A stretch of DNA of 64,000 bases from Rickettsia sp. MEAM1 (Bemisia tabaci) (lineage in GTDB: Bacteria > Pseudomonadota > Alphaproteobacteria > Rickettsiales > Rickettsiaceae). The translations under genes were made by a program, and so were the position numbers. The DNA is taken from assembly GCF_002285905.1 (NCBI RefSeq), contig NZ_CP016305.1, forward strand, positions 930,001-994,000, given 5' to 3'. This document shows, in pieces, positions 18,505 through 30,064 of the stretch (the first letter of the stretch is position 1; each line of letters starts with the position of its first letter). Below the pieces are notes generated by a model, which saw only the letters and a program-made list of their open reading frames with translations, did not search any database and had not been told where the DNA came from.

Positions 18505-18620
18505 GTCATCCCCAGCAACGGCTGGGATCCAGAATAAAGCGAGATATATCGAGCTTTTTATTTTAAACATTTACTGTATTCATGTTTATTTTTCTGGATT
18601 CACGCCTCCGCGGGAATGAC
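18505..18620. repeat. Family A element between hflK and hflC
   Basis: Starts GTCATCCCCAGCAACGGCTG and ends CTGGATTCACGC...GCGGGAATGAC, with the shared inner AAAGCGAGATATATCGAGC. It fills most of the 201-bp spacer inside this operon. Confidence 0.85.
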
Positions 18621-21157: not shown

Positions 21158-21279
21158 GTCATCCCGTGGCTTGTCCACGGGATCCAGAAAAAAGCGAGAA
21201 AAATCGAGCTTTTAATTTTAAAATTTGCTATATTTAGGCTTTTTAAGTAATGGATCCCTTGAATAAATCACGGGATGAC
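21158..21279. repeat. Family B element
   Basis: Starts GTCATCCCGTGGCTTGTCCA and ends AATCACGGGATGAC, with inner AAAGCGAGAAAAATCGAGC and TTGCTATATTTAGG. The 21108-21349 gap holds this and a partial second hairpin. Confidence 0.85.
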
Positions 21280-22248: not shown

Positions 22249-22626
22249 ATGACTAAAACCAAACAAGAAATTTATAATAAGCGTCCTATTTCGCCGCATC
22301 TAACTATATATAAGCCGCAAATAAGTTCTACCTTGTCGATTTTGCATCGTATGACAGGGGTAGCTTTATTTTTTGCAGTTTCAATTTTGGCATGGTGGTT
22401 TATTCTTAGTAAATTTGATAGTAATTATATACAGCTAGCTAATTGTTGTTGCATTATAAAAATATGTTTGATACTAACTAGCTTTGCTTGGTTTTATCAT
22501 TTATGCAACGGCATCAGGCATTTATTTTGGGATATTGGATTAGGCTTTTCTATAAAAGCAGTTAATTTAACAGGCTGGAGCGTGGTTATTTGTTCTGTCT
22601 TATTTACGATATTGTTGTGGGTGTGA
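22249..22626 (+). CDS. sdhC: Succinate dehydrogenase cytochrome b556 subunit
   Basis: 125-residue membrane anchor of complex II that helps bind heme b and ubiquinone. The family signature RPISPHLTIYKPQ at residues 14-26 is followed by SSTLSILHRMTGVALFF. Two further helices follow, the middle one starting near the conserved HLCNGIRHLFWD with candidate heme-ligand histidines. It is first of sdhC-sdhD-sdhA, but a GIY-YIG gene separates it from sdhD here. Confidence 0.95.
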   Translation: MTKTKQEIYNKRPISPHLTIYKPQISSTLSILHRMTGVALFFAVSILAWWFILSKFDSNYIQLANCCCIIKICLILTSFAWFYHLCNGIRHLFWDIGLGFSIKAVNLTGWSVVICSVLFTILLWV

Positions 22627-22736
22627 AATGTACAATGCTATTCCAACGTAGGCACATAAGTTTTAAGTCAAAAGAAAAAAGTTTTTGATGTTATTTTGGT
22701 ATGAGTTTCACTTACGTGTATTGAGAAAAGCGTTCT

Positions 22737-22768
22737 ATGTCATTCCCGCGTAGGCGGGAATCCAGAAA
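22737..22768. repeat. Left 32-bp arm flanking the GIY-YIG gene
   Basis: Family A arm beginning ATGTCATTCCCGCGTAGGCG. It is the perfect reverse complement of 23065-23096 on the other side of the gene. Confidence 0.92.
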
Positions 22769-22789
22769 AAATAAAATTAAAGTAATAAA

Positions 22790-23093
22790 AATGTATTGGG
22801 TATATATATTATGTTCCGATCGTAATGGTACTTTATATATTGGTATTACTAATAATATATTGCGTCGTGCTTATGAACATAAACAAAAAGTGATTAAAGG
22901 ATTTATATCAAAATATAATATTATAAAACTTGTTTATACAAAAGAATTTGCTGACATCAAAGAAGCTCCTACTAGAGAAAAAGCTTTAAAAAAATGGAAT
23001 CGTGGCTGGAAAATAAAATTGATAGAAAGTATTAATCCTAAATGGAACGATTTAGGCGAGTGTATTTCTGGATTCCCGCCTACGCGGGAATGA
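22790..23093 (+). CDS. GIY-YIG nuclease family protein
   Basis: Small single-domain nuclease of the UPF0213/GIY-YIG type, 100 residues from the ATG at 22790. The fold is complete: VYILCSDRNGTLYIGITN (both tyrosine motifs), then the arginine in LRRAYEHK, and the metal-binding glutamate in APTREKALKKWNR. I chose 22790 rather than the in-frame ATG at 22737. The extra 18 residues from 22737 (SFPRRRESRKN) are the translated repeat arm, and homologues start at MYWVYIL. The last residues (SGFPPTRE) are also repeat-derived. It interrupts sdhC-sdhD in the same orientation. Confidence 0.88.
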
Positions 23094-23096
23094 CAT
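23065..23096. repeat. Right 32-bp arm flanking the GIY-YIG gene
   Basis: Perfect reverse complement of 22737-22768, ending GCGGGAATGACAT. It includes the GIY-YIG stop codon. Confidence 0.92.
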
Positions 23097-23152
23097 TAAA
23101 AGGATTGAGAAGCTAAAACAAATAACAAAAAAAATGTGTTTAGAGAAAATTA

Positions 23153-23530
23153 ATGACATATGATTTTAGAGCAGAGATTGTAAAAGCAAAAAATACTGGT
23201 TCTGCTAAAAGTGGTTCACATCATTGGTTACTACAAAGAATTACCGCTATTATATTAGTGTTGTGTTCTGTATGGTTACTATATTTTACGTTAGCCCATA
23301 AAAACAGTGATGTAAATATTATTATTTGGGAGCTGAAAAGACCTATTAATTTAATACCTTTATTAATCGCAGTAATTACTTCTTTATATCATGCCATGCT
23401 TGGAATGCAGGTAGTAATAGAGGATTATGTAAGCTGCAACAAGTTACGGAATACATTAATTATAGCAGTGAAGCTATTTAGTATTTTAACTATCATAGCT
23501 TTTATAGTAGCTGTGTTTTATGGAAAGTAA
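23153..23530 (+). CDS. sdhD: Succinate dehydrogenase hydrophobic anchor subunit
   Basis: 125-residue second membrane anchor of complex II. The signature GSAKSGSHHWLLQRITAII lies near residue 17, and HAMLGMQVVIEDYV contains the heme-proximal histidine and the quinone-site aspartate-tyrosine (DY) pair. There are three helices. Separated from sdhC by the GIY-YIG unit and from sdhA by repeats. Confidence 0.94.
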   Translation: MTYDFRAEIVKAKNTGSAKSGSHHWLLQRITAIILVLCSVWLLYFTLAHKNSDVNIIIWELKRPINLIPLLIAVITSLYHAMLGMQVVIEDYVSCNKLRNTLIIAVKLFSILTIIAFIVAVFYGK

Positions 23531-23666
23531 ACAAGCATCAGAAGCGTATGATGCAGAGAATGCAAGGTTAATAATATTAAGGGAAGCTGTAAGGGTAGGA
23601 ATACATCACGCTGAAAATGATATATTCAGCAAAAAATTAATTTTAGATTTAATTGATGATGAGTAA
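23520..23666 (+). CDS. Small ORF, possible antitoxin remnant (48 aa)
   Basis: An ATG-initiated 48-codon frame overlaps the end of sdhD by 11 bp. The predicted peptide is helical and acidic (ENARLIILREAVRVGIHHAE, then LDLIDDE). Its ARL-x-x-LREAV-x-x-GI pattern resembles the C-terminal half of ParD-type antitoxins, but no DNA-binding N-terminus and no toxin gene is present. I cannot assign a function; it may be a relic. Confidence 0.4.
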   Translation: MESKQASEAYDAENARLIILREAVRVGIHHAENDIFSKKLILDLIDDE

Positions 23667-23681
23667 ATTTTTGTAAAACGT

Positions 23682-23868
23682 CATTGCAAGGAGCAAAGGT
23701 TCTTGTTGCATAGCTCCGATGTCATTCCCGCGAAAGCGGGAATGACATATAAGGCATTTTCCGAGCCATACAACAAAGCCGGAGCAAAGCGACAAAGCAA
23801 TCTAGAAAAAATAATAAAAATACTAAAGTATTTTTAGCTGGACCCCGTGGACAAGCCACGGGGTGACA
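23682..23868. repeat. Cluster of palindromic repeats before sdhA
   Basis: Partial C arm near 23682, a perfect 26-bp hairpin (23721-23746) identical to that at 10772, another degenerate C arm, and a B-type hairpin (GGACCCCGTGGACAAGCCAC) near 23840-23868. Nothing coding is seen here. Confidence 0.75.
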
Positions 23869-26592: not shown

Positions 26593-26696
26593 AACATACT
26601 TGCTTTTATGGAAAAAGTAATTATAATTTAAATTTAGTGTAATTTAATTTGAAAGTGTAAATATATTATTTGCATTTGTAAAATCATTTAAAATTC

Positions 26697-26723
26697 AAAG
26701 GGCAAAAGTAGTTTTTGCCCTTT
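26697..26723 (+). terminator. Strong hairpin after the ABC permease gene
   Basis: AAAGGGCAAAA / TTTTTGCCCTTT with a 4-5 base loop, about 105 bp after the permease stop and before the ribosomal cluster. The descending stem is itself T-rich. Likely a factor-independent terminator. Confidence 0.65.
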
Positions 26724-26734
26724 AATCATCCTAT

Positions 26735-26858
26735 GTACCTTTGATATTTCAAGATTTAGTACGTCAAATTTCGGGATTCGTCTTTGCTCACGTACTATTT
26801 GTACGCTGTGCAGTCTCACCGCTTATTTGACTTCCAACTTTTGAAATCTCTGTGGTAC
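26735..26858. repeat. Family D repeat in the rpsL leader
   Basis: Bounded by GTACC / GGTAC, with TATTTCAAGATTTAGTACGT, a core CTCACGTACTATTTGTACGC and the return block CTTCCAACTTTTGAAATCTC. It ends about 28 bp before the rpsL start, so it is probably transcribed in the rpsL leader. Its closest relative in the window lies inverted between rpoB and rpoC. Confidence 0.78.
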
Positions 26859-29988: not shown

Positions 29989-30064
29989 AGGAGTGTAGCT
30001 CAATTGGTAGAGCGCCGGTCTCCAAAACCGGAGGTTGCGGGTTCGATGCCTGTCGCTCCTGCCA
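29989..30064 (+). tRNA. trnW: tRNA-Trp (CCA anticodon)
   Basis: 76 nt including an encoded 3' CCA. The acceptor stem AGGAGTG pairs with CGCTCCT, with one G-T pair. The D-arm is GCTCAATTGGTAGAGC, the anticodon stem CCGGT/ACCGG carries loop CTCCAAA (anticodon at 30022-30024), and the T-arm contains GGTTCGATGCC. It lies between fusA and secE, as usual near secE, and is probably cut out of the surrounding transcript. Confidence 0.97.

Follow-up and report, generated by a model that had tools for sequence, protein, structure and literature searches.

CGTC repetitive extragenic palindromes (REPs), represented by CGTC-1, by RPE-6 in Rickettsia conorii and by dRS3 in Neisseria, were defined by Di Nocera et al. 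(2013; PMC3733652) and have been reported from five phyla, apparently without a dedicated transposase. The part of that paper covered here discusses only transposases and does not name GIY-YIG. The other closely comparable system is the REPtron of the REP-associated tyrosine transposases (TnpA_REP/RAYT), in which an HuH enzyme cuts and recombines REPs in vitro and the REPs carry a GTAG tag (PMC8266576, covered in part). An ATGAC motif is frequent in the Rickettsia repeats RPE-4, RPE-6 and RPE-7, which were treated as inserts of uncertain common origin (PMC3767692); no word in the covered part of that text begins with "nuclease", and none in the covered part of the RepRanger paper (PMC12306157) begins with "GIY-YIG" or "nuclease". 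A link between GIY-YIG nucleases and CGTC REPs was also absent among the matches listed from the full-text literature, which leaves most subscription papers outside. Here we describe a 360-bp unit in Rickettsia sp. MEAM1 (Bemisia tabaci), in which a GIY-YIG nuclease gene lies between two inverted REPs of the CGTC type. The unit was found in a stretch of 64,000 nucleotides (NZ_CP016305.1, positions 930,001 to 994,000; hereafter the window) of a genome that consists of a single contig of 1,378,618 bp. We consider it fairly probable that, within the CGTC REP superfamily, this unit is an autonomous element, namely a REPtron built on a GIY-YIG nuclease instead of a RAYT transposase. Its parts, in window coordinates, are as follows.

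22737..23096, + strand: whole unit (left arm, GIY-YIG gene and right arm; 360 bp), between sdhC and sdhD
22737..22768, + strand: left arm, a CGTC-type REP; 8-bp hairpin in single-stranded DNA (ssDNA), fold z -4.33
22791..23093, + strand: GIY-YIG nuclease gene, 100 aa; PF01541 match, E 9.3e-16
23065..23096, - strand: right arm, the same REP inverted; ssDNA hairpin, fold z -5.00

The two 32-bp arms are complementary at 32/32 positions, in agreement with an earlier interpretation made from the letters alone (the sequence-only reading), which had described them as exact reverse complements. The left arm consists of an outer ATGTC tag, a stem formed by ATTCCCGC and GCGGGAAT, the loop GTAG and an inner CCAG tail, and in both arms the tag faces outward and the CCAG tail faces the gene. 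The arms thus have the unpaired CGTC/TGTC tag, the 8–9 bp stem with initial AT, the 4–5 nt loop and the CCA tail by which the CGTC REP superfamily is recognized, features that we took from the covered part of PMC3733652. No Rfam match to the arms was obtained. The enclosing open reading frame (ORF) occupies 22737–23093, and the nuclease's own ATG lies at 22791; the gene end at 23093 given by the sequence-only reading stands, and its start at 22790 is corrected. The right arm encodes the C-terminal residues SGFPPTRE and the stop codon. PF01541 (GIY-YIG) is the sole Pfam domain of the 100-aa product, for which no NCBIfam match was found. Residues Y5, Y16, G18, R26, H30 and N82 are kept in 107/107 homologues and E63 in 99%. 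The window nuclease carries Y5, Y16, R26, H30, E63 and N82, which are likewise conserved columns in A3 and which we take to include catalytic residues of the GIY-YIG superfamily.

Matches to the nuclease gene were present in all 23 Rickettsia genomes searched. Protein similarity separated the enzymes into five classes, A (the window copy), A', B, C and D, and the arms also fell into five types. Among 132 typed arms of 78 units, 130 were of the type that fits the enzyme class, whereas 57.9 matches on average, and never more than 88, were obtained when the enzyme labels were shuffled 10,000 times within genomes. The 78 units are part of about 85 places listed, from which seven short fragments were left out, and class-D arms, with their long variable loops, were called from a score of 11 in every unit, the score for the other types being 15. 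Both arms could be typed in 56 units, one arm in 20 and neither in 2; left and right types agreed in 55/56. As many of the units are orthologous, they were merged by common outer flank into 25 sites, three of which carry units of more than one enzyme class, and 28/30 distinct class-arm combinations still matched. At least two enzyme classes coexist in 20/23 genomes.

The association extends to other bacteria. Our sample comprised the best 80 of 566 relatives found by scanning genome contigs, with many phyla represented in the titles of these records, and 29 from the class search (109 loci); six loci with less than 150 bp on one side were dropped, leaving 103, including two near-identical pairs (L075/L082 and L120/L155). 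Inverted repeats across the gene with a score of at least 15 were detected at 75/103 homologues versus 14/2631 control windows from the same contigs, and at a score of at least 18 at 60/103 versus 6/2631. A strict REP finder, which requires GTC, a stem of at least 7 and then CCA, CTA or TCA, and which was designed after the arms had been inspected, gave REPs with tags outward on both sides at 66 homologues (64/101 without the two repeated loci), tags inward at 2, a partial or mixed pattern at 20 and none at 15. The corresponding figures for the 2631 controls were 2 tag-outward, 0 tag-inward, 147 one-sided or mixed and 2482 none. A later sample, taken by phylum, comprised 28 loci, of which L305 was left out for its short flank. 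Among the remaining ones, repeats scoring at least 18 occurred at 19/27 loci versus 0/241 controls, and those scoring at least 15 at 19/27 versus 5/241; the strict finder gave both-sided REPs at 0/241 of these controls. Hence the expectation of the sequence-only reading that this nuclease subfamily is flanked by inverted arms above chance was confirmed, both in Rickettsia (130/132 arms) and in other bacteria (66/103 versus 2/2631).

In the other bacteria, the base ahead of GTC is T or C in 122/126 flanks, and only this base is nearly fixed. In 22 arms, stem covariation was seen at 8/8 pairs, with tag and tail nearly constant; these arms came from a hairpin finder, so that the percentage of pairing carries no weight and the compensating changes do. 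Distance between stem sequences correlated with distance between enzymes (r 0.34, 0/5000 permutations as high), and arm length did so weakly (r 0.10, 546/5000 permutations as high), both in the 52 of the 66 loci with arms of at most 32 nt. The stem-enzyme correlation would also be expected from common descent of the whole unit. A stem that is specific to the enzyme class, beside a tag and tail that hardly vary, suggests that each enzyme reads its own hairpin. At the level of genomes, the nuclease gene was present at E 1e-10 or better in 83/289, and at least 10 REP hits were found in 41/83 genomes with the gene versus 13/206 without it (odds ratio 14.5 for 289 related genomes, with no tree correction); this search modelled 26-nt arms and listed at most 26 hits per genome.

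The MEAM1 genome holds three full units with the same ends and differing surroundings, their proteins being 100, 92 and 81% identical to the window protein, as well as two distant relics.

G000:C1 1023368-1023667: gene of a further unit copy, with one internal stop (the 81% copy)
G000:C1 1034141-1034440: gene of a further unit copy
G000:C1 56983-57171 and 166668-166880: two distant class-D GIY-YIG relics; class-D-like arms lie close to each, those of the second being weak on one side

Ten pairs of units, chosen by eye, were compared. In five, each from a single genome, the copies resemble each other only within the unit, with limits at the outer arm ends or a few bases from them: L031/L200 (98.9%, G015), L013/L029 (95.8%, G014), L028/L199 (94.4%, G005), L001/L002 (94.3%, MEAM1) and L019/L211 (91.1%, G021). 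The MEAM1 pair is formed by the window copy and the 1034-kb copy, whose likeness stops within a few bases of the outer arm ends. As such pairs occur in five genomes, with their likeness ending at or near the arm ends, we infer that the unit has been copied.

The neighbours of the window unit are two genes of the sdh operon.

22249..22626, + strand: sdhC (TIGR02970, E 1.9e-35)
23153..23530, + strand: sdhD (TIGR02968, E 6.8e-27)

The sequence-only reading took the two genes to be normally adjacent and split by the unit, which does not hold in this genus: direct adjacency (4 bp) occurs in just 2/23 Rickettsia genomes, and the gap is usually already open. A unit lies in this gap in 7/23 genomes, two of class A, one of class B and four of class C, each with its own arm type; the outcome that would have refuted that reading, the gene at this locus in all relatives without arms, was not encountered. 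In G012, the other genome of this species, the gap holds a geneless class-B dimer and no nuclease match. In the gene tree, the window copy, the 1034-kb copy and the counterparts of the latter in G012 and G019 form one group (support 99/99), apart from the unit of G013 that lies in the same gap. A related long sequence occupies the gap in 5/23 genomes (L043, L047, L051, L053 and L055); in L053 it is an ORF of 291 aa that is intact and encodes HEPN and nucleotidyltransferase domains, and window positions 23105–23152, beside sdhD, look like a leftover 3' end of this long sequence. A small ORF of 48 aa without a Pfam match at E 0.01 (window 23520–23666) overlaps the end of sdhD and lies between sdhD and sdhA. 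Farther along, the window holds a Rickettsia rpsL leader (26593–26735) and a tRNA (29989–30061).

REPs of this kind are numerous in the genome independently of the gene. The window holds 10 copies of GTCATTCCCGC, all of them exact, whereas shuffled sequence had 0.11 on average with up to one mismatch allowed. A search of the genome for the tag together with its hairpin (A and A' stems, at most one mismatch) gave 173 sites, and the reversed pattern gave 0. Solo palindromes, of which the genome has 13 of class A/A', account for 26 of these matches, as each is counted on both strands. The following geneless forms are located in the window.

23719..23748: solo palindrome (30 bp) that has both tags and is among the 13 class-A/A' solos of the genome
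10772..10797: second class-A solo palindrome
18505..18620: geneless REP dimer, 116 bp, with the spacer motif TAAAGCGAGATAAATCGAGCTTTTA at 18535 (2 mismatches)
21158..21279: geneless class-B dimer, 122 bp, with left arm GTCATCCCGTGGCTTGTCCACGGGATCCAG and the same spacer motif as the 18505..18620 dimer, at 21190 (2 mismatches)

The many geneless arm copies noted by the sequence-only reading are therefore present, and they are not of the single kind it described, comprising single REPs, solo palindromes (two of class A and one of class B) and two dimers (116 and 122 bp). The spacers of both window dimers are not nuclease-gene sequence. Reading of 30 loci gave nine distinct geneless class-A/A' dimers of 64–131 bp, seven of which have a related spacer as judged by eye. 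Three gene-bearing class-B units (L038, L207 and L209) carry the 25-nt spacer motif of the geneless dimers upstream of the gene, and thereby tie the gene-bearing and geneless class-B forms together. The proposal that the geneless copies derive from the gene-bearing element thus survives in part, through the shared arms and this class-B motif; as internal deletions of the nuclease gene, class-A/A' dimers had to be rejected (0/9 dimers read). Two sites with closely similar flanks carry either a dimer or a solo palindrome, depending on the genome (L281 and L282 versus L269 and L283; L251 and L252 versus L253). Since each arm is itself palindromic, the two arms of a unit are also direct repeats, and such alternation is expected if the arms recombine. 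The outer flanks of class-A/A' REPs in the MEAM1 genome, including window 22731–22738, end in T in 43 of 44 distinct cases, and G at -6 to -4 occurs in none of them; this bias may be a target preference.

These observations can be arranged into a working model. The gene lies between two inverted REP hairpins whose YGTC tags face outward, and each enzyme class is paired with a hairpin type. The nuclease would bind and cut its cognate YGTC-hairpin-CCAG, most likely in ssDNA, which lagging-strand synthesis, repair or DNA uptake might supply. If the enzyme reads its own hairpin, cutting of the hairpins is likely. Near-identical units with ends at or near the outer tags lie at different places in the same genome, as copying of the unit would produce. 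That cutting should also move the unit goes further, and is the least certain part of the model: the unit, or geneless dimers, could be freed or laid open by the cuts and then joined at a new site through repair and replication by the host. GIY-YIG enzymes are hydrolases, and strand joining by them is not expected, so joining would depend on the host. Finally, a single solo palindrome is left at some sites, presumably through recombination or slippage between the arms.

Several observations weigh against an autonomous element. The flanks inspected around gene-bearing units showed no target-site duplication and no clean empty site. For the window unit in particular, the 23 Rickettsia sdhC-sdhD gaps, the junctions at which the sequence-only reading proposed to seek such duplications or empty sites, gave no clean empty site. 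Many Rickettsia copies of the gene contain stop codons, and none of the nine class-A/A' dimers is a deletion derivative. Among the ten unit pairs, L214/L215 is part of a larger duplication, one pair is between two genomes, and three are too diverged or truncated for their ends to be placed; near-identical units could also have spread by recombination between REPs. Outside Rickettsia, the strict finder detected no REP at 15/103 homologues and a partial or mixed pattern at 20/103, and in the later sample it found REPs with outward tags on both sides at only 9/27 loci, with 1 tag-inward, 8 mixed and 9 without any. In Neisseria gonorrhoeae, whose homologue is 52% identical to the window protein and is surrounded by dRS3 repeats, the nearest dRS3 point their tags toward the gene and do not form a simple tag-outward pair.

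The main rival explanation starts from this Neisseria homologue. A 2025 study in Nature Communications reportedly shows that the Neisseria Ssn family cuts ssDNA at a dRS3-like repeat and affects transformation. By analogy, the nuclease might be kept, by its host or by itself, as a site-specific ssDNA cutter for which REPs are marks, for example in limiting DNA uptake or recombination, with the flanking REPs regulating the gene and with no self-transposition. We regard such a non-transposing cutter, whether host-useful or self-regulating, as unlikely overall and yet as deserving serious weight. Selfish spread, and not maintenance by the host, is suggested by the duplicates bounded by the unit ends in five genomes, by the frequent stops and by the patchy presence of units, which occur in 7/23 Rickettsia genomes between sdhC and sdhD, in 4/23 at the A' site and in 1/23 at the 1023-kb site. 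More doubtful still is a homing-like spread, in which the nuclease would cut a REP or solo palindrome elsewhere and repair would copy the unit in, the REPs being homing sites and not ends. GIY-YIG enzymes do include homing endonucleases (PMC1564403, covered in part), the nuclease has its closest PHROGs match, over the first 35 residues (E 5.2e-4), in a family of GIY-YIG homing endonucleases, and individual sites are seen with the gene-bearing, geneless or solo form. However, both arms are intact around the gene, so that the target would remain unprotected, unlike in classical homing (if the arms are the site), and an unrelated REP would offer little homology, at most the arm.

A chance neighbourhood, with REPs and small intergenic genes both collecting in gaps and the nuclease unrelated to the arms, would draw on the 173 sites of this REP type in the MEAM1 genome, near which some genes necessarily lie, and on the 147/2631 control windows with a one-sided or mixed REP. 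It was rejected as wholly implausible, given the match of enzyme class to arm type, the tag-outward orientation (66/103 versus 2/2631), the replication in the second sample (19/27 versus 0/241) and the co-occurrence of gene and REPs across genomes. A DDE-type insertion sequence was also rejected, as the protein has no DDE domain (PF01541 only) and no target duplication was seen in the inspected flanks. The autonomous GIY-YIG element thus remains the reading that we favour.

The wider relatives of the enzyme were surveyed as well. The best PDB matches are the UPF0213 proteins BH0048 (1zg2) and EF2693 (1ywl), with a best E of 1.9e-7. E. coli YhbQ, which we take to belong to UPF0213, is 24% identical to the window nuclease over 76 residues. 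UPF0213 proteins are therefore sequence relatives of the nuclease; yet E. coli yhbQ has no REP within 250 bp on either side by the strict finder. No match to the nuclease gene at E 1e-5 was found among 50,697 phage records, and the search for defence systems gave no convincing match (best E 0.022); 33 matches occurred in plasmid records, and two of them were inspected. A gene of this kind also splits an operon in Azospirillum lipoferum, where it is located between sufB and sufC (L198 1489–1782).

Compared with the described systems, the window arms share with CGTC REPs the CGTC/TGTC tag, the 8-bp stem with initial AT, the 4-nt loop and the CCA tail, and the HH dimers of CGTC REPs, with their tags outside, have the frame of the window unit (PMC3733652, covered part). 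The ATGAC motif of Rickettsia RPE-4, RPE-6 and RPE-7 is the tag of the window arms on the opposite strand (PMC3767692, covered part). With the REPtron, as far as the covered text of PMC8266576 describes it, the unit shares a small enzyme gene accompanied by REPs, with many further REPs elsewhere in the genome, and the enzyme-specific recognition of REPs established for the REPtron has its likeness in the class-arm pairing. It differs in that the REPtron has an HuH tyrosine transposase and a GTAG tag, whereas here the enzyme is a GIY-YIG protein of predicted activity and the tag is YGTC. In window-type units the enzyme gene is flanked by cognate REPs, which bears out the parallel with REPs and RAYTs drawn by the sequence-only reading; the unit is REPtron-like, and by its enzyme and tag it is not a RAYT REPtron.

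With the reported Ssn ssDNA nucleases, the window enzyme shares the GIY-YIG superfamily, having both the domain and the presumed active-site residues. If the Ssn work already describes the inverted unit, the novelty shrinks to new members of the Ssn system. Otherwise, an enzyme tied to CGTC REPs is new with respect to the literature covered, in part as partial texts, in which none is so tied: a common repeat family thought to be enzyme-less probably has an enzyme of its own. The pairing of class and hairpin supplies ready cognate and non-cognate pairs for recognition tests, and would help to explain how Rickettsia genomes became filled with RPE-4 and RPE-6, and possibly RPE-7. More tentatively, and with rather less confidence than we place in the individual unit, CGTC REPs, one of two large REP superfamilies, might generally be mobile elements driven by their own GIY-YIG nucleases, with a hydrolytic, hairpin-specific nuclease replacing the strand-joining transposase and with stem and enzyme co-evolving in parallel lineages within one genome. 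If the enzyme also moves the hairpins, this would be transposition by a hydrolase.
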